A DNA stretch of 43,033 nucleotides, from NCBI GenBank assembly GCA_017416685.1, contig JAFQBN010000021.1, forward strand, positions 1 to 43,033. The letters are read 5' to 3'. Below are positions 8,587 through 41,033 of this stretch, in pieces. Under the pieces are notes generated by a model. That model saw nothing but the letters and a program-made list of their open reading frames with translations. It was not told the DNA's origin and did not search any database. The position numbers and the translations under genes were made by a program. The stretch is from Oscillospiraceae bacterium. GTDB taxonomy: Bacteria > Bacillota > Clostridia > Oscillospirales > Oscillospiraceae. Position 1 is the stretch's first letter. Every line of letters starts with the position of its first letter.

Positions 8587-9297
8587 TCATGATGTAATAA
8601 GCTGCATTCCCCGCGCGAGGATTTCCTCCACAGCCTCTTGATCCATTTTTCGGCGCAGTCGTTCCACGCCCTCAGCCATGTTGGGTGCGCGGAAAGTCAG
8701 ATTGTGGCAATCGGAAGCCAGAACCACATTCCGCTCCCTCTCCACAAACCGGACCAATTTACGCCCCGCGATGGGCCCATGCAGCGCACCGGTACTGATC
8801 TGAATTGGAACACCCATACTTATGATCTCTTCCACAGCGGTTCTGCGCCCGGGCTGGAAATAACGCTCCAGATGGGCCAGTACGGGGGTAATCCCCTGAT
8901 TGAGCAGATTGTAAATGGTGTTCAGCACCTGATCGTTCCACCGGCTATGGGGCAGCTCCAGCAGCATATTGCGGGTGGAGCCGATGCAAAGCCTCTCCAG
9001 CTCCTCCCAATGTCGCATATTGGGCCGCCATGCCACCTCTGCCCCCAGTATCAGCCGGGGCAGCCGCTCCTGCTCTGCCGTGGGCAGCGCATCCACTGCC
9101 GCCTGCAGGCGCGCCATGGCACGTGATCTCCGGGTCAGAAAATGCTCCACGTTCTCCCGCTCACGGTAAAAGTGCGGGGTCAACACCACCACACGCACTC
9201 CCTGCTCCGCCTGCCTGCGCAGCATCGCCAGACTCAGCTCCGCCGTTGCGGCGCCATCGTCCATTCCGGGCAGAATGTGTGTATGAAGATCAATCAT
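8587..9297 (-). CDS. PHP-domain tyrosine-protein phosphatase, CpsB/YwqE type
   Basis: A 236-residue metal-dependent phosphatase that dephosphorylates the partner BY-kinase and thereby controls capsule or exopolysaccharide chain length. The metal-binding PHP motif DLHTHILPGMDDGA opens the protein; further ligands appear in TPHFYRE, VLAHLERY and LASDCHN. I start at ATG 9297 (MIDLHTH), which is where the family begins and gives an eight-base overlap with the kinase gene; a longer reading upstream runs through the kinase gene out of frame and has no phosphatase homology. Third gene of the three-gene operon. It is followed by a terminator rather than glycosyltransferases. Confidence 0.92.
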   Translation of the reverse strand: MIDLHTHILPGMDDGAATAELSLAMLRRQAEQGVRVVVLTPHFYRERENVEHFLTRRSRAMARLQAAVDALPTAEQERLPRLILGAEVAWRPNMRHWEELERLCIGSTRNMLLELPHSRWNDQVLNTIYNLLNQGITPVLAHLERYFQPGRRTAVEEIISMGVPIQISTGALHGPIAGRKLVRFVERERNVVLASDCHNLTFRAPNMAEGVERLRRKMDQEAVEEILARGMQLITS

Positions 9298-10141
9298 CGG
9301 CTTCTTCGTCGGCATCCGCCTCGTAGGCCTTGGCAATGGCGGCATGATAACCGTACTTGCCGTAACCGTACTTGCCGTAACCGTACTTGCCGTAACCGTA
9401 TTTCTTGTAGCTGTAATAGCGCTTATAACGCTTCTTGCTGTAGCCATAGTAAGATCGGTCACGCTCCAGACCATTGAGTACGAAGCCAAGCACCTTGATC
9501 TTGGCGTATTCCAACTGATCCAGCGCCCGGGTAACGGCGCCGCGCTCGGACTGGTTGGCACGGACCAGGAACACCACGCCATCGCTGTTAGGTGCCACAA
9601 CCAGCGCATCCGTAACCATGTTTACGGGCGGGGAGTCGATAAAGACGTAATCGTAGCGGCTGCGCAGTTCCTCCAAAAGGGTCTGCATGCGGGAGGAACC
9701 CAAAAGTTCGGAGGGGTTGGGGGGAATACTGCCGGCCAAAATCACATCCAGACCGCTTTTATCGGTGTGGATGATGGCCTGGTCCAGCAGGCTGGGGTCC
9801 AGCAGCAGGTTGCTCATGCCCACCTTATTGCCCAGCTGCAGCAGACGCGCCAGCTTGGGGCGGCGCATATCGCAGTCGATGATCAGCACCTTGCAGTCGG
9901 TCATGGCATAGGAGATGGCCAGATTGATGGCAGTCGTACTCTTACCCTCGCTCTGCAGGGCAGAGGTGAGCACCACGACCTTGCTCTTGCTGTCACCGGT
10001 CAAAGCGAAGGACACGTTGGTACGCAGTGCCTTATATGCCTCACGCACAAAGAAGTTACTGTCAGGGGTAAGCAGGTTCTTGCGTGCCTCTTCGATCTGC
10101 CGGTTTCTGAGCTGTTCCAGATTCTTTTTGTTGCCCAGCAT
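9290..10141 (-). CDS. Bacterial tyrosine kinase (BY-kinase), CpsD/CapB type
   Basis: A 283-residue cytoplasmic autokinase of the polysaccharide copolymerase system. Walker A is ALQSEGKSTT (61-70), Walker A' VLIIDCDMRRP (85-95) and Walker B YVFIDSPP (165-172). The C terminus carries the autophosphorylated Tyr cluster, here unusually long: YYGYSKKRYKRYYSYK then four KYGYG/H units (about 231-265), encoded by a 15-bp tandem repeat. An acidic tail closes the protein. Its membrane partner is encoded immediately upstream (TAATG overlap of one base), the usual split arrangement in Bacillota. The phosphatase that reverses the modification follows with an eight-base overlap. Confidence 0.94.
   Translation of the reverse strand: MLGNKKNLEQLRNRQIEEARKNLLTPDSNFFVREAYKALRTNVSFALTGDSKSKVVVLTSALQSEGKSTTAINLAISYAMTDCKVLIIDCDMRRPKLARLLQLGNKVGMSNLLLDPSLLDQAIIHTDKSGLDVILAGSIPPNPSELLGSSRMQTLLEELRSRYDYVFIDSPPVNMVTDALVVAPNSDGVVFLVRANQSERGAVTRALDQLEYAKIKVLGFVLNGLERDRSYYGYSKKRYKRYYSYKKYGYGKYGYGKYGYGKYGYHAAIAKAYEADADEEADD
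9346..9403 (-). repeat. 15-bp tandem repeat coding for KYGYG units
   Basis: About four copies of a 15-base unit (GCCGTAACCGTACTT on the + strand, from 9359, 9374 and 9389, plus a partial copy at 9346) inside the kinase gene. Copies are nearly identical, so copy number may vary by slippage without breaking the frame. Not a CRISPR: there are no spacers. Confidence 0.9.
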
Positions 10142-10887
10142 TATGCCTGCGCCCCCTTTTCTTTGGTCTTCTTGGTCTCGGATCCTTTGGTTTCCTCAAC
10201 CATAAACTCCGGGATCTGTCCCAGCACGGGATACTTGGAAATAGCGTTCAGATCCTCTTCATCCTTGATGCGCACATCCAGCAGGTACATCAGCGCGACG
10301 ATCAGAATCGCGAGCATGCTGCCCATGATGCCGCCCAGCACGATATTGCGTTGAATGTTGGGCGAGTAGGGGGCCTTGGCCAGCTTGGGCTGGTCCACTA
10401 CTTTGGTAGAGCTTCCCTCAACGATGGTAGTCAGATGGTCGGGCATGACCTCCTCCGCCGCCCGGGCAATACGCAGGGCCACAACGGGATTGGTGTGGCT
10501 GACGCTGACGCGGAACAGGACCGTCTCGGTCACCTGCTGGGCAGACATGCAGCTGCGCACCTGTGCAGCAGACAGACCGCCGGCCTGCTGACCCACCTTC
10601 TCCAGTACGGTATCGGTGGAGATGATGCCAATATAGGTGTTGACCAACTGCTCGGCCGCAGACAGGCTGGAACTGGAAATGTAATTGACCTGCTCATAGC
10701 CCTCCGCATTGTTGACGTAGAACGTTACTGTCGAGCGGTACTTAGGCGCGATCAATTTCGCAGTAAACAGTCCGGCGGCGGTAGCGGCAAGAATCGCACA
10801 CAGCACGATCAGCCACCACTTATCCAGACACGCAAAGACAAGCTTGCGAATATTGATTTCGATTCCTTCTCTTCTTTCAGTATCCAA
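10141..10887 (-). CDS. Polysaccharide copolymerase membrane protein (Wzz/YveK family)
   Basis: A 248-residue protein with two membrane helices (about residues 18-40 and 173-195) flanking an extracellular domain, the layout of Wzz/CapA-type chain-length regulators that activate a separate BY-kinase. After the second helix comes a cytoplasmic tail (LDVRIKDEEDLNAISKYPVLGQIPE) of the type that contacts the kinase. The start is TTG at 10887, with AAAGG about 11 bases upstream; in-frame ATG alternatives are absent because a stop codon lies just before it. First gene of the operon, read from a TTGCAA-16-TATAAT promoter, and joined to the kinase by a one-base TAATG overlap. Confidence 0.88.
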   Translation of the reverse strand: MDTERREGIEINIRKLVFACLDKWWLIVLCAILAATAAGLFTAKLIAPKYRSTVTFYVNNAEGYEQVNYISSSSLSAAEQLVNTYIGIISTDTVLEKVGQQAGGLSAAQVRSCMSAQQVTETVLFRVSVSHTNPVVALRIARAAEEVMPDHLTTIVEGSSTKVVDQPKLAKAPYSPNIQRNIVLGGIMGSMLAILIVALMYLLDVRIKDEEDLNAISKYPVLGQIPEFMVEETKGSETKKTKEKGAQA

Positions 10888-11061: not shown

Positions 11062-14000
11062 TCAGATCTTGGTGATATCGATGGGGGTCAGTTCTTCGCT
11101 GCGGCTCTGCTGGCGGACGGTCAGCAGGGCTCTGGCAGTATCGATTGCGGTGACACAGCCCACGGAATGCTCCACCGCACTGCGGCGGATCTTAAATCCG
11201 TCGGTGTCCTGCTTGCGTCCCTTGGTGGGGGTGTTGATGATCAGGTCCACAGTACCGGATGCGATCATGTCCAGAATGTTGGGGTGGGCCTGAGACACGC
11301 GGTTGACCCGCTTGCAGTCCACGCCCGCCTCGGTCAGCACATCGCAGGTGCCGGAGGTGGCGTACAGTTCCACACCCATCTCCTCAAAGCCGCGGGCAAT
11401 GGGAACGATCTCCTTTTTGTCCTCGTCCTTGACGGTGATGATGATGCGGCCGCCGCGCTTGGGAGCGCGCATGCCGGAACCCTTGAACGCCTTCAGCAGG
11501 GCCTGGGGATAGGTTTCGGCCAGACCCAGCACCTCACCGGTGGACTTCATTTCGGGGCCAAGTCCGGTGTCCACGTCGGTCAGCTTCTCAAAGGAGAACA
11601 CGGGGGCCTTGACGGCGTAGTAGTCGGCCTCCTTATAAATGCCGGTGCCGTAACCCAGATCCTTCAGCTTCTGACCCAGCATGACCTTGGTGGCAAGGTC
11701 GATGATGGGTACGCCGGTGACCTTGGAGATATAGGGAATGGTGCGGGAGGAACGGGGATTGACCTCGATAACGTAGATATCGTCGTTATAGAGGATATAC
11801 TGGGCATTGATCAGGCCGATAACACCCAGATGCTTGGCCATGTTGCGGGTGTGCTTCAGGATCAGCTCACGGTGCTTGTCCTCCAGATTCAGGGGAGGAT
11901 ACACGGCGATGGAGTCACCGGAGTGCACACCGGCACGCTCCACGTGTTCCATGATGCCGGGGATGAGGAGGTCCTCACCGTCAAACACGCCGTCCACTTC
12001 CAGCTCACGGCCCATCAGGTACTTATCCACCAGAATGGGGTGTTCCTGAACGGTCATGTTGATGATCTTCATGAACTCCTCGATGTTGCGGTCGGAGTAG
12101 GCGATCTCCATACCCTGACCGCCCAGCACGTAGGAGGGGCGCACCAGCACGGGGTAACCCAGCTCGTGGGCGGCATCCAGCGCCTCCTGAGTGGTGAAGA
12201 TGGTGCGGCCCTTGGCACGGGGAATATCGCACTTTTCCAGAATTTCGTCAAAGCGCTCCCGGTCCTCGGCGGCATCCACGCCGTCGGAGGAAGTACCCAG
12301 AATGCGCACGCCCATGTCGGTCAGAGCCTTTGCCAGCTTGATGGCGGTCTGGCCGCCGAACTGGACCACAGCGCCCCAGGGCTTCTCCTGCTCCACGATG
12401 TTCTGCACGTCCTCGGCGGTCAGCGGCTCGAAGTACAGCTTGTCCGCCACGTCGAAGTCGGTGGAAACGGTCTCGGGGTTGTTGTTGACGATGATGGTCT
12501 CGTAACCCAGACGGCGGAAGGCCCACACAGAGTGGACGGAGCAGTAGTCAAACTCGATACCCTGTCCGATTCGGATGGGACCGGAGCCGAGGACCAGCAC
12601 CTTTTTCTTGTCGCCGGTATCCACGGCCTCGTTCTCACCGTCGTAGGTGGAGTAGTAATAGGGGGTCTTGGCGTCGAACTCGGCGGCGCAGGTGTCAACC
12701 ATCTTGAAGGAGGGAATGATGCCGTAGCTTTCCCGCAGGGCCTTGACCTCCTCCTGCTTCATGCCGCACAGAGTGCCGATATAGCTGTCGGCAAAGCACA
12801 TCTCCTTGGCCTGCTTCATAAGGTCCGCATCGGGCGCGCCCTTGCAGGCCTTCAGCGCCTCTTCCATGTCGATGATGCGCTTGAAACCGTCCAGGAACCA
12901 GATGTCCATCTTGGTGATGTGGTTGATCTTCTGGGGGGAGAAGCCGCGGCGCAGAGCCTCGGCCACCACGAACAGCCGCTCGTCGGTGACGTTGACCAGC
13001 ATATCCTCGATCTCGTCGGTGTACAGGCCCTCAAGCTTGTCCAGCTTCAGGGCGCGCACGTTCAGCTCCAGAGAGCGGATGGCCTTCATCAGGGCGCCCT
13101 CGAAGGAGTTGGCAATGGCCATGACCTCGCCGGTGGCCTTCATCTGGGTGCCCAGAGTGCGGCTGGCGGTGGTGAACTTGTCAAAGGGCAGGCGGGGGAT
13201 CTTCAGCACGCAGTAGTCGATGGTGGGCTCGAAACAGGCCATGGTGGTGCCGGTGACCGCGTTGGTGATCTCGTCCAGAGTGTAGCCCAAAGCCACCTTG
13301 GCCGCCACCTTGGCGATGGGATAGCCGGTGGCCTTGGAGGCCAGGGCGGAGGAACGGGACACGCGGGGGTTGACCTCGATGACCGCGTACTCAAAGCTGT
13401 CGGGATTCAGGGCAAACTGGCAGTTACAGCCGCCCTCGATCTCCAGGGCGTTGATGATGTCCAGGGCCGCAGAGCGCAGCATCTGATATTCCTTGGGAGC
13501 CAGCGTCTGAGTGGGAGCCACCACGATGGAGTCGCCGGTGTGGACACCCACGGGGTCGATATTCTCCATGGAGCAGATGGTGATGGCGTTGCCGGCGCTG
13601 TCGCGCATGACCTCGAACTCGATCTCCTTCCAGCCGGAGATGCATCGCTCGATCAGCACCTGACCCACACGGGACAGGTTGATGCCGCGGTCGGAGATCT
13701 CCTCCAGAGAGGCCCGGTCATAGGCAATGCCGCCGCCGGTGCCGCCCAAGGTATAGGCGGGACGGACGATGACGGGGTAACCGATGGACTCGGCAAATTC
13801 AACGGCATCGGCCACACTCTCCACCACCAGAGAGGTCACGCAGGGCTGACCGATGGACTCCATACAGTCCTTGAAGCCCTGACGGTCCTCGGCCTTGTGG
13901 ATGGACTCGGGGCTGGTACCCAGCAGGCGGATGCCGTACTTTTCCAGCGTACCGTTTTCATACAGGGCCATGCCCATGTTCAGGCCGGTCTGACCGCCCA

Positions 14001-14268
14001 GGTTGGGCAGCAGGGCGTCGGGACGCTCTTTCTCAATGATCTGGGTGATGGAGGGGATGTTCAGCGGCTCGATATACACATGGTCGGCAATATCCTTGTC
14101 GGTCATGATAGTGGCGGGGTTGGAGTTGACCAGAACGACTTCCAGTCCCTCCTCCTTCAGGGCGCGGCAGGCCTGAGTGCCGGCGTAGTCAAACTCGGCA
14201 GCCTGACCGATGACGATAGGGCCGGAGCCAAGAACAAGAACCTTCTTAATGTCAGCATATCTGGGCAT
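11062..14268 (-). CDS. carB: Carbamoyl phosphate synthase large subunit
   Basis: A 1068-residue enzyme of normal length that makes carbamoyl phosphate from bicarbonate, ammonia and two ATP for pyrimidine and arginine synthesis. The two homologous ATP-grasp halves are evident: each begins with a VLVLGSGPI(V/R)IGQ nucleotide-binding segment (near residues 10 and 560) and contains VRPxYxLGG and EVNPRxSR motifs. The C-terminal MGS-like allosteric domain (about 935-1068) includes ELYATSGTCDVL and IINTPTKGRKQDTDG. The start overlaps the carA stop by one base (TAATG). Its normal ammonia donor would be glutamine hydrolysed by CarA, which here appears to lack the catalytic Cys, so the pair may use free ammonia. 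Confidence 0.97.
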   Translation of the reverse strand: MPRYADIKKVLVLGSGPIVIGQAAEFDYAGTQACRALKEEGLEVVLVNSNPATIMTDKDIADHVYIEPLNIPSITQIIEKERPDALLPNLGGQTGLNMGMALYENGTLEKYGIRLLGTSPESIHKAEDRQGFKDCMESIGQPCVTSLVVESVADAVEFAESIGYPVIVRPAYTLGGTGGGIAYDRASLEEISDRGINLSRVGQVLIERCISGWKEIEFEVMRDSAGNAITICSMENIDPVGVHTGDSIVVAPTQTLAPKEYQMLRSAALDIINALEIEGGCNCQFALNPDSFEYAVIEVNPRVSRSSALASKATGYPIAKVAAKVALGYTLDEITNAVTGTTMACFEPTIDYCVLKIPRLPFDKFTTASRTLGTQMKATGEVMAIANSFEGALMKAIRSLELNVRALKLDKLEGLYTDEIEDMLVNVTDERLFVVAEALRRGFSPQKINHITKMDIWFLDGFKRIIDMEEALKACKGAPDADLMKQAKEMCFADSYIGTLCGMKQEEVKALRESYGIIPSFKMVDTCAAEFDAKTPYYYSTYDGENEAVDTGDKKKVLVLGSGPIRIGQGIEFDYCSVHSVWAFRRLGYETIIVNNNPETVSTDFDVADKLYFEPLTAEDVQNIVEQEKPWGAVVQFGGQTAIKLAKALTDMGVRILGTSSDGVDAAEDRERFDEILEKCDIPRAKGRTIFTTQEALDAAHELGYPVLVRPSYVLGGQGMEIAYSDRNIEEFMKIINMTVQEHPILVDKYLMGRELEVDGVFDGEDLLIPGIMEHVERAGVHSGDSIAVYPPLNLEDKHRELILKHTRNMAKHLGVIGLINAQYILYNDDIYVIEVNPRSSRTIPYISKVTGVPIIDLATKVMLGQKLKDLGYGTGIYKEADYYAVKAPVFSFEKLTDVDTGLGPEMKSTGEVLGLAETYPQALLKAFKGSGMRAPKRGGRIIITVKDEDKKEIVPIARGFEEMGVELYATSGTCDVLTEAGVDCKRVNRVSQAHPNILDMIASGTVDLIINTPTKGRKQDTDGFKIRRSAVEHSVGCVTAIDTARALLTVRQQSRSEELTPIDITKI

Positions 14269-15350
14269 TACTTGGCACCTCCCATAATCTCAACAACGCG
14301 GTCAAAGACGTACTTCACTTCCATGGGGCCGGTATTGCCCTCGGGATGATACTGCATGGTAAAGCAGTTGGCGCGCTTGTACTTCAGACCTTCCACGCTG
14401 CCGTCGTTGACATTGACGTGGCTGACCTCGGCGATTTTGGCGTCCACGCTGTCGCCGGCCACGGCGTAGCCGTGATTCTGGCTGGTGATGAACACCTTGC
14501 CCTTTTCCAGATCGCGGACGGGGATGTTGCCGCCCCGGTGGCCGTAGGGCAGCTTTTCCACTCTGGCACCGGTGGCAAGGGCAAGCAGCTGGTGGCCCAG
14601 ACCGAAGCCGAACAGGGGCAGGTCGCTTTCATAGAGCTTGTTTACCTGCTCAATGACGGCGGCGTTCTCATTGGGGTCGCCGGGACCGGGAGACAGCACT
14701 ACGCCGTCATAGCCGCCGGCGAGAATGTCGGCCGCGGAAGTGTCCGCAGGCAGCACAGTCACTTTGCAGCCGCGACCGGTCAGGCAGGCGATGATGCTGT
14801 TGGCCACGCCGCAGTCCAGCACGGCAGTGTGGCAGCGCTGCTCCCCCTCGGCGGGGATGACCTTGGCCTGCTTGCAGGTGACCTCCGCTACCTTTCCGGT
14901 AACCTTATGAGCGCGGAGCTTGTCCATCACCTGGGCAACATTAAAATGCTCCGCACAGGTGAGCATAGCCATCATGCTCCCCTGATTGCGGAGTATTCTC
15001 GTCAGGGCGCGGGTGTCAACACCCTGCACGCCTGCAATATTATTCTGTTTCAGATAGGTATTCAGGTCACCCTGGCAGCGGAAGTTGCTGCCCCGGTCGG
15101 ACAGGTGACGGACCACGATGGCCTCCACCCAGGTGCGGTCGGACTCCACGTCCTCGTCATTGACACCGTAGTTGCCAATGAGGGGATAGGACATGACCAC
15201 GCCCTGTCCGGCGTAGGAGGGGTCGGTCAACAGTTCCTGATAACCGGTCATAGAAGTGTTGAACACCAGCTCACAGATCTTTTCTTCCGTGCTGCCGATG
15301 CTGGTTCCGGTAAACACGCTGCCGTTTTCCAGAATCAATGTCGCTTTCAT
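14268..15350 (-). CDS. carA: Carbamoyl phosphate synthase small subunit with Cys-to-Gly change at the active site
   Basis: A 360-residue class I glutamine amidotransferase subunit. The N-terminal CPSase domain is intact (ILENGSVFTG, FNTSMTGYQE, VQGVDTRALTR). The C-terminal amidotransferase domain keeps LSPGPGDP and the His335/Glu337 pair (QYHPEGNTGP), but the nucleophile motif, GICLGHQ in E. coli, reads GFGLGHQ: Gly250 (codon GGT, 14601-14603) stands where Cys must attack glutamine. Glutaminase activity should be lost, and ammonia would have to be the nitrogen source. I start at ATG 15350, ten bases after AAAGGCGG; ATG 15359 would be too close to that site. A consensus promoter and attenuator-like hairpin precede the gene. 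Confidence 0.95.
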   Translation of the reverse strand: MKATLILENGSVFTGTSIGSTEEKICELVFNTSMTGYQELLTDPSYAGQGVVMSYPLIGNYGVNDEDVESDRTWVEAIVVRHLSDRGSNFRCQGDLNTYLKQNNIAGVQGVDTRALTRILRNQGSMMAMLTCAEHFNVAQVMDKLRAHKVTGKVAEVTCKQAKVIPAEGEQRCHTAVLDCGVANSIIACLTGRGCKVTVLPADTSAADILAGGYDGVVLSPGPGDPNENAAVIEQVNKLYESDLPLFGFGLGHQLLALATGARVEKLPYGHRGGNIPVRDLEKGKVFITSQNHGYAVAGDSVDAKIAEVSHVNVNDGSVEGLKYKRANCFTMQYHPEGNTGPMEVKYVFDRVVEIMGGAK

Positions 15351-39701: not shown

Positions 39702-41033
39702 TTAATACACGGTAATGTACTTCTCGGTCTCCCAGGAGGACACGCGTGTGCGGTATTCGTTCCACTCCTTGCGCTTGCCCTCAATATAGTTCTCGGCCAC
39801 GTGCTCGCCCAACACATCCAAAATCAGCTGATCCTTCTCCAGCTCGTCCAGCGCCTCACGCAGGCTGCCGGGCAGACTGTCAATGTGATGGGCGACCCGG
39901 GTATCCTTGCCCATCTCAAAGATGTTCTCGGTGATCTCGGGGGGCGGGGTCAGCTTCTTCTCAATGCCGTCCAGTCCGGCAGCCAGACACACCGCAACCG
40001 CCAGATAGGGATTGCAGGAGGGATCGGGGTTGCGCAGCTCCACGCGGGTGGCCTTGCCCCGGGCGGCGGGGATACGGATCAGGGCCGAGCGGTTGGAGGC
40101 AGACCACGCCTTATAGCAGGGGGCCTCATAACCGGGCACCAGCCGCTTATAGGAATTGACCAGAGGGTTGGTAATGGCGGTAAATCCCTTCACATGGGCC
40201 AGCAGACCGGCAATGAAGTGATAGGCAGTATCGGACAGCTGGCGGGGGTCATCGGGATCGTAAAACACATTCTGTCCTTCCTTAAACAGGGACATATTCA
40301 TGTGCATACCGTTGCCCGCCACACCGTAAATAGGCTTGGGCATAAAGGTGGCATGAAGCTTGTGCTTCTGGGCGATGGTCTTGGCCACCAGCTTGAAGGT
40401 CATGACCTTGTCGGCACCGTCCAGCGCCTCGGCATACTTAAAGCCGATCTCGTGCTGACCGGCAGCCACCTCATGGTGGACGGCCTCGATCTCAAAGCCC
40501 ATCTTCTCCAGCACCATGCACATTTCACGCCGGGCAGGCTCTCCCCGGTCCAGAGGGCCAAGGTCGAAGTAGCCCACCTCGTCATTGGTGTGGGTGGTTG
40601 GGTTGCCCCGCTCGTCGGTCTCGAACATGAAAAATTCCATCTCCGGGCCGATGTTGAAGGTGTCAAAGCCCATGTCCTTGGCGCGCTGGATGACCCGGTG
40701 CAGCACACCGCGGGGGTCGCCCACGAAGGGGGTTCCGTCGGGGTTATGCACGTCGCACACCAGTCGGGCCACTTTGCCGTACTCCGGCTGCCAGGGCAGC
40801 TGGACAAAGCTGTTCAGGTCGGGGTACAGATACTGGTCGGACTCGTTGATACGCACGAAACCCTGAATGGAGGAGCCGTCGATGGCGATCTCGTTGTTCA
40901 CGGCCTTCTCGATTTGAGAGGCGGTAATGACCACGTTCTTCAGCTGGCCGAAAATATCCACAAACTGCATGCGGATAAACTCGATGCCTTCTTCCTTGAC
41001 AATGCGGATAACGTCCTCTTTTGTGTAAGCCAT
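39702..41033 (-). CDS. glnA: Glutamine synthetase, type I
   Basis: A 443-residue GSI-alpha-type enzyme making glutamine from glutamate, ammonia and ATP. The beta-grasp N terminus (EFIRMQFVDIFGQLKNV), the Mg/ATP loop EVAAGQHEIGFKYA, MPKPIYGVAGNGMHMNMSLF and NSYKRLVPGYEAP are conserved. GSI-alpha enzymes lack the adenylylation control of longer GSI-beta forms and are instead feedback inhibited. A perfect TTGACA-17-TATAAT promoter precedes it, and the leader of about 50 bases has AAAAGGGG as ribosome site. It is followed by dapL after 12 bases. Confidence 0.98.
   Translation of the reverse strand: MAYTKEDVIRIVKEEGIEFIRMQFVDIFGQLKNVVITASQIEKAVNNEIAIDGSSIQGFVRINESDQYLYPDLNSFVQLPWQPEYGKVARLVCDVHNPDGTPFVGDPRGVLHRVIQRAKDMGFDTFNIGPEMEFFMFETDERGNPTTHTNDEVGYFDLGPLDRGEPARREMCMVLEKMGFEIEAVHHEVAAGQHEIGFKYAEALDGADKVMTFKLVAKTIAQKHKLHATFMPKPIYGVAGNGMHMNMSLFKEGQNVFYDPDDPRQLSDTAYHFIAGLLAHVKGFTAITNPLVNSYKRLVPGYEAPCYKAWSASNRSALIRIPAARGKATRVELRNPDPSCNPYLAVAVCLAAGLDGIEKKLTPPPEITENIFEMGKDTRVAHHIDSLPGSLREALDELEKDQLILDVLGEHVAENYIEGKRKEWNEYRTRVSSWETEKYITVY

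Follow-up and report, generated by a model that had tools for sequence, protein, structure and literature searches.

In this study, we found that carA, the gene for the small subunit of carbamoyl-phosphate synthase, has lost the codon for the catalytic Cys of its glutaminase site in a 43,033-nucleotide stretch of DNA from an Oscillospiraceae bacterium (the window). The enzyme is likely, with a probability of about 0.8, to be a two-subunit synthase fed by free ammonia, in which CarA would be unable to hydrolyse glutamine and would be kept as a structural subunit. This reading is drawn from sequence comparison. Carbamoyl phosphate is the shared precursor of arginine and pyrimidines, and the bacterial enzymes that make it are, as far as we know, regarded as glutamine-dependent.

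The carAB genes of the window

The carA gene lies on the minus strand at positions 14268..15350, from an ATG at 15350 to a stop codon that ends at 14268. It encodes a protein of 360 amino acids with a profile-complete glutaminase domain that has no nucleophile. The nucleophile motif, LPLFGFGLGHQLL, places Gly250 in a GFGLGHQ (FGFGLGHQ) context; codon 250 (14601..14603, minus strand) is GGT, or ACC on the plus strand. An alignment with E. coli CarA placed Gly250 at the catalytic Cys, which is Cys269 in the numbering used in the accessible part of PMC6245113. The same part of that paper describes Cys-269 and His-353 as essential for glutamine hydrolysis in E. coli. The catalytic His (codon 335, 14346..14348; His353 in E. 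coli) and the catalytic Glu (codon 337, 14340..14342) are both retained on the minus strand, within TMQYHPEGN. Two residues that are invariant in 30 Cys-type CarA were also replaced on this strand, the Asn of the SNGPGDP motif by Pro (codon 221, 14688..14690) and a Lys by Ala (codon 183, 14802..14804). The window CarA scored 422.7 bits against TIGR01368, the profile of the glutamine-hydrolysing small subunit (curated cut-off 307.35). The profile score, His and Glu that mark a member of this family are thus present and the Cys nucleophile is missing, and annotation by family profile calls such a CarA 'glutamine-hydrolysing' although the catalytic residue is absent.

The carB gene, for the large (synthetase) subunit of 1068 amino acids, occupies 11062..14268 of the minus strand. 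Its start codon overlaps the stop codon of carA by one base, and the two are separate genes. CarB scored 1499.5 bits against TIGR01369 (curated cut-off 1027), and the alignment showed that Cys/Ala/Ala, which we take to be the ammonia gate residues by E. coli numbering, are kept. The profile score, the conserved residues and the gate residues expected of a functional synthetase were all found in the window protein. Directly downstream of carAB, at 9290-10887, lie genes for a polysaccharide chain-length determinant and a tyrosine autokinase.

The first-pass annotation had claimed that CarA lacks its catalytic Cys, that His335 and Glu337 are present, and that the gene is otherwise intact and operonic with carB; the codon, the open frame, the profile match and the gene overlap bear this out. 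It had also pointed to a second, Cys-bearing carA as a finding that would speak against it. A PF00988 search of the whole genome, which is 98.91% complete, found one CarA and no second copy with Cys. A base-calling error at 14603 was ruled out, since six other genomes of the genus have Gly at the same site and a Gly-type CarA occurs in 13 of the 394 genomes sampled from the order, counting that of the window.

Cys-less CarA in the genus and the order

Among 64 genomes of the same genus, CarA was matched in 58 and in none of the other 6; 54 of these CarA were read, four partial matches being left out. The nucleophile position was Cys in 47 and Gly in seven, namely those of the window genome (G000), G012, G014, G015, G016, G017 and G057. 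In another set of 54 CarA loci readable at the site, 52 had Cys and the remaining two were members of the Gly clade. The seven Gly-type CarA formed one branch, with support of 100/99 in a 61-row tree in which G057 was flagged as a long branch, and of 93/86 (not starred) in a 57-row tree from which the trait columns had been removed. The change is thus fixed in a clade, a point on which the earlier annotation had called for an alignment, and the contrary outcome it had named, Cys in all close relatives, was not what we found, as six relatives share the Gly.

G000 and G057 retain the catalytic His, whereas Asn replaces it in G014 and Asp in G012, G015, G016 and G017, so that it is gone in five of the seven clade members, or five of the six other than the window. 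Because His is still present in two members and replaced in the others, Cys was lost first and His afterwards, the latter probably more than once. The glutamine-binding residues of E. coli presumably correspond to Ser33, Gln254, Asn292 and Gly294 of the window CarA, and all four are still present across the clade. The genomes of the clade measure 1.5-1.9 Mb; most others of the genus measure 2-4.5 Mb, and some incomplete ones are equally small. One relative, with a CarA 90% identical to that of the window (L032), carries the record label goat cecum, and the record of another (L033, SIG489) names no habitat. The label fits an ammonia-rich gut and does not show the amino-acid fermentation that the first-pass annotation had supposed, and a gut habitat is suggested only by this one relative's label.

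In the order as a whole, a pattern for the Gly motif matched in 15 of 394 genomes, and 13 of the matches were CarA, that of the window included. The other two (L236 and L237) were chance matches to the pattern and were dropped. The class I glutaminase domain (PF00117) was then searched in 36 genomes, which comprised the 12 other Gly-motif genomes, 22 family neighbours without the motif, G013 and G057. Forty carA regions were fetched, 36 from the searched genomes and four from the genus; carB followed carA directly in all 40, four of which were cut by a contig or stretch end. CarA was found in 17 of the 22 family neighbours and was Cys-less in six of these (G101, G104, G116, G120, G132 and G308). 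In the other five the PF00117 search alone found no CarA, and four of the genomes in which none was found by this search (G150, G163, G446 and G248) belong to families that also hold Cys-less CarA.

The final set contained 57 CarA, of which 30 were Cys-type (23 from the order and seven distant rows) and 27, all from the order, were Cys-less. The replacing residue was Gly in 25, Ser in one and Ala in one, an excess of Gly that is partly ascertained because 12 genomes were chosen with a Gly-only pattern. The seven Cys-less CarA that came from the 22 neighbour-only genomes had Gly in six cases and Ser in one. On structural grounds, Gly is probably favoured as the replacement, since it would relieve the strain of the turn that holds the nucleophile. 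His was lost in 23 of the 27 Cys-less CarA and Glu in nine. The 57-row tree required seven changes at the nucleophile, six of them forced by well-supported (starred) branches, with a bootstrap range of 6-8; the exact number is uncertain because L296 and L307 are on long branches. Such a count gives no direction, and we read the changes as losses on the ground that all seven distant rows have Cys. These results suggest that the loss of Cys arose repeatedly across the order, the more distant relatives seemingly having lost it on their own. A looser pattern, which also catches another family, hinted at further Cys-less CarA in G385, G413 and G419 among the matches listed; they entered none of the counts.

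The carB frames examined differ in length. Half of them (21 of 42) measure 1303-1354 amino acids and probably carry a C-terminal fusion to a diaminopimelate epimerase domain, which was confirmed by profile in two (L294:5236-9273 and L302:5264-9325) and visible as a tail in five. Loci L273 and L276 instead have dapF as a gene of its own after carB, and the window CarB is without the fusion.

Constraint on CarAB and loss of other glutamine enzymes

The strength of constraint was estimated by a simple Nei-Gojobori count of dN/dS over six clade pairs and nine Cys-type pairs. In the glutaminase half, the clade gave 0.18-0.27 versus 0.03-0.21 in the Cys-type relatives; in the N-terminal half, the values were 0.06-0.12 versus 0.01-0.14. 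The ranges overlap in both halves, and the frames were open in all CarA rows read. These values suggest that CarA has been retained in the clade and that its glutaminase domain is still constrained, the constraint in the dead half being at most somewhat relaxed.

Site by site, 53 CarA positions are invariant in the 30 Cys-type rows, and the 27 Cys-less rows show variation at 33 of them; the glutaminase half accounts for 23 of these (out of 33 invariant positions) and the N-terminal half for 10 (out of 20). K183, N221, H335 and D344 are altered in most Cys-less rows, and the commonest changes besides those of Cys and His fell on N221, K183, S45 and D344, positions that we take to be near the active site. 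In CarB, only 14 of the 218 positions invariant in 21 Cys-type rows vary in any of 22 Cys-less rows; ten of the 14 vary in one row only, and the window CarB shows no change at any of the 218. By this comparison of the two subunits, the damage sits on the CarA side.

The loss appears to be wider than the first-pass annotation supposed, as it recurs across the order and is accompanied by the loss of other glutamine-dependent enzymes. CTP synthase is usually an essential enzyme. It was absent (PF06418) from all seven small-genome relatives (G000 and G012-G017, including G013, in which no CarA was found) and from G057, and was present in all six other genomes of the genus that were searched. It was also missing from 13 Cys-less-only genomes of other families and from G139, G150, G163, G248 and G446; some of the genomes without it are more than 95% complete. 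In a survey subset, it was present in one of 15 Cys-less-only genomes (including G057), in 14 of 15 with Cys-type CarA and in one of five without CarA. Overall, PyrG was found in one of 21 Cys-less-only genomes versus 18 of 19 with Cys-type CarA (Fisher p 5e-9, a raw count that ignores descent), and a glutaminase-bearing GMP synthetase was missing from 18 of the 21. Among the genomes behind this association, some are only 65-87% complete. Outside the window genus, a full GuaA was judged by frame length and match span, not by residues, and an ambiguous 637-amino-acid GuaA frame in G140 was counted as lacking the glutaminase form and left out of the pair test. In five phylogenetically independent pairs, three to four went in the same direction and none in the opposite one (median p 0.125). 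The association of Cys-less CarA with loss of glutamine enzymes is clustered by descent and not significant; with only five independent pairs, significance is not claimed.

Within the genus, the only GMP synthetase of G012, G013, G014, G016 and G017 is a short form that has no functional glutaminase half, and none was seen in G015. G000 and G057 have both a short and a full form, the short form of G000 lying on contig C4 (L155). A short form with an absent or degenerate glutaminase stands beside a full one in four of the six other same-genus genomes searched (G004, G047, G061 and G062). A search for class II amidotransferase domains (PF13522) found none in G012, G013, G014 and G017 and a single 342-amino-acid protein in each of G000 and G015. 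PurF- and GlmS-like proteins were found in G016 and a GlmS-like protein in G057, these being named from sequence and not by profile; neither GlmS nor PurF was found by PF13522 in G000, G012, G013, G014 and G017. As a guess, glucosamine-6-phosphate may be made there by NagB running in reverse with ammonia. For the genomes without CTP synthase, the obvious guess is that CTP comes from cytidine salvage. CTP synthase is lost entirely, which suggests that nucleotides are salvaged and which ammonia use leaves unexplained, so that part of the enzyme-loss pattern is genome reduction.

The carAB genes might be decaying toward arginine and pyrimidine auxotrophy, with the loss of Cys as an early step and an enzyme that now does little. 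The small genomes of the clade, the missing CTP synthase, the absence of PF13522 domains from four of the seven small-genome relatives and the four genomes of related families without a CarA match all agree with such decay. We nevertheless consider it unlikely. The frames are open throughout, with dN/dS well below 1 in both halves; CarB is essentially unchanged; and the persistence of the Cys-less form across several families is unlike decay. The consumers of the product are also kept: matches to curated profiles showed that the window genome encodes an ornithine carbamoyltransferase as well as an aspartate carbamoyltransferase.

Gene neighbourhoods also bear on this point. Twelve were listed, and the genes of nine were scanned in part against profiles. 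The Cys-less carAB of G079 and G384 lies behind genes for ArgJ, an amino-acid kinase, a class III aminotransferase and a carbamoyltransferase, in an argJ-argB-argD-argF-like order, which argues against decay. A carbamoyltransferase gene precedes the Cys-less carAB in G104, and a dihydroorotase-like gene adjoins it in G140 and, together with OMP decarboxylase, in G407. No arginine or pyrimidine context was seen in G097 and G123, with one neighbour scanned in each, nor was there any next to the window carAB. In G140 and G116 (loci L273 and L276), the Cys-type carAB is grouped with other glutamine enzymes, namely asparagine synthase and a purF-like gene, and with dapF; the G140 cluster (L273) also holds CTP synthase.

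Free ammonia as the likely nitrogen donor

Since the nucleophile is missing while the synthetase and two consumers are intact, free ammonia is the likely donor. CarB would form carbamate from free ammonia, which may come in by way of the vacated glutaminase pocket or from an opening at the side. The retention of CarA would serve to stabilise or regulate CarB, and the carbamoyl phosphate would feed ornithine and aspartate carbamoyltransferase. Such a scheme would be workable where ammonia is plentiful. The first-pass annotation had proposed that the glutaminase is dead and that the enzyme uses free ammonia, as vertebrate CPS I does. The clade-wide loss of Cys, the loss of His, the unchanged CarB and the two carbamoyltransferases support this proposal by comparison; its ammonia step is what we infer from these features, and the accompanying loss of CTP synthase is a part of the pattern that ammonia does not account for.

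Human CPS I belongs to the same family as the window enzyme (chains 5dot and 6uel matched CarA with 187 bits and CarB with 880 bits) and likewise keeps a glutaminase-like domain without a functional Cys beside an intact synthetase part. However, it is a single fused polypeptide, whereas the bacterial window enzyme has separate carA and carB genes; it has Ser rather than Gly at the nucleophile, and the likely products of the window pathway are arginine and pyrimidines. The available portion of PMC4655335 gives this Ser as Ser294 and reports that the former ammonia tunnel of human CPS I is closed by a Gln where E. coli has Gly293, and that E. coli enzymes remain active with ammonia from outside when their glutamine tunnel has been blocked or perforated. 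The window CarA has no such blocking residue, as Gly274 stands at that place when counted on the alignment to E. coli. Among the Cys-less rows this residue is Gly, Ala, Cys or Ser, and it says little because the Cys-type rows vary there as well.

E. coli CarAB resembles the window enzyme in operon order and domain plan (1t36_B matched CarA with 296 bits), and the E. coli sequence of 1c30/1c3o has Ser at the nucleophile. The E. coli Cys269 mutants are laboratory products, whereas the loss in the window is natural and clade-wide, and the active site has since decayed further. The carbamoyl-phosphate synthases of Alcolapia and frogs, described in the accessible text of PMC7657897 as ammonia-preferring through a convergent move from glutamine, keep the Cys-His-Glu triad and alter the glutamine-binding residues, the reverse of the window clade. 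The GMP synthetases without a glutaminase in the same genus resemble the window enzyme in that the synthetase is kept and the glutaminase half is absent or degenerate; in GuaA, however, the domain is missing or cut down, whereas CarA stays as a subunit and the active site alone is lost. External ammonia is usable in vitro by GMP synthetases and their synthetase subunits, according to the part of PMC10526850 at hand. Taken together, the comparisons suggest that the window enzyme is likely an ammonia-dependent variant of the bacterial enzyme. Our searches of open-access papers turned up no account of a bacterial CarA that lacks the Cys by nature, which does not prove that none exists.

The synthase might still depend on glutamine if another glutaminase subunit or a free glutaminase supplied the ammonia. 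TrpG/PabA glutaminase subunits are shared between enzymes elsewhere. Glutamine can still be made, since glnA, for glutamine synthetase, lies in the same window (39702..41033, minus strand); glutamine synthetase was present in all 17 genomes searched. A HisH-like protein that retains its Cys, named from sequence and not by profile, is also present, and ammonia could be handed on within the cell. However, the window genome has no second CarA, and the Cys-less CarA should still fill the docking place, because its gene overlaps carB and it is constrained. We regard such a supply as quite improbable. It is very improbable that the enzyme now works chiefly in reverse, generating ATP from carbamoyl phosphate with no need of glutamine hydrolysis. 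Carbamoyl-phosphate synthases can make ATP in this way in vitro, and a fermenter might use it; homologous Cys-less operons, however, lie behind arginine biosynthesis genes. The overall reaction is also described as irreversible in the accessible part of PMC6022934. That a different residue took over as nucleophile is hardly credible: the clade CarA has further cysteines, such as Cys329 six residues before His, but all those present in all seven members (Cys 26, 92, 132, 195 and 329) are also Cys in the 47 Cys-type relatives (with one gap at 329), so that no compensating Cys was gained, Cys180 is confined to three clade members, and His itself was lost in five.

Several observations stand against feeding by free ammonia. 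According to the portion of PMC6245113 available, ammonia sustains the E. coli reaction only at concentrations that are very high and likely unphysiological. A genuine switch should thus require a site better suited to ammonia; no gained feature of this kind was found in the comparisons of CarA and CarB. The glutamine-binding residues, as aligned, are retained, which is more than ammonia feeding requires. The loss of CTP synthase is that of a whole enzyme and not an ammonia switch. Four genomes of related families are without a CarA match in the PF00117 search, and the window carAB has no arginine or pyrimidine genes around it, as was also the case for the single neighbour scanned in each of G097 and G123.

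A broader proposal, for and against which we see about equal weight, is that ammonia-fed two-subunit synthases evolved at least six times in this one order and by the same route. The nucleophile would change to Gly, the rest of the glutaminase site would then decay, CarA would be kept as a scaffold and CarB would stay unchanged. Some genomes would pair a glutamine version, the Cys-type carAB in the glutamine-enzyme cluster with asparagine synthase, a purF-like gene and CTP synthase, for times of ammonia shortage, with an ammonia version, the Cys-less carAB beside arginine or pyrimidine genes, for times of plenty; whole lineages would then drop the glutamine set. If this is true, the rule of glutamine use would be false for part of a large bacterial order, and the wiring of the enzyme would be linked to ammonia supply. 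The Cys-less forms would also provide ready-made intermediates for studying the evolution of the ammonia channel and of a dead subunit.
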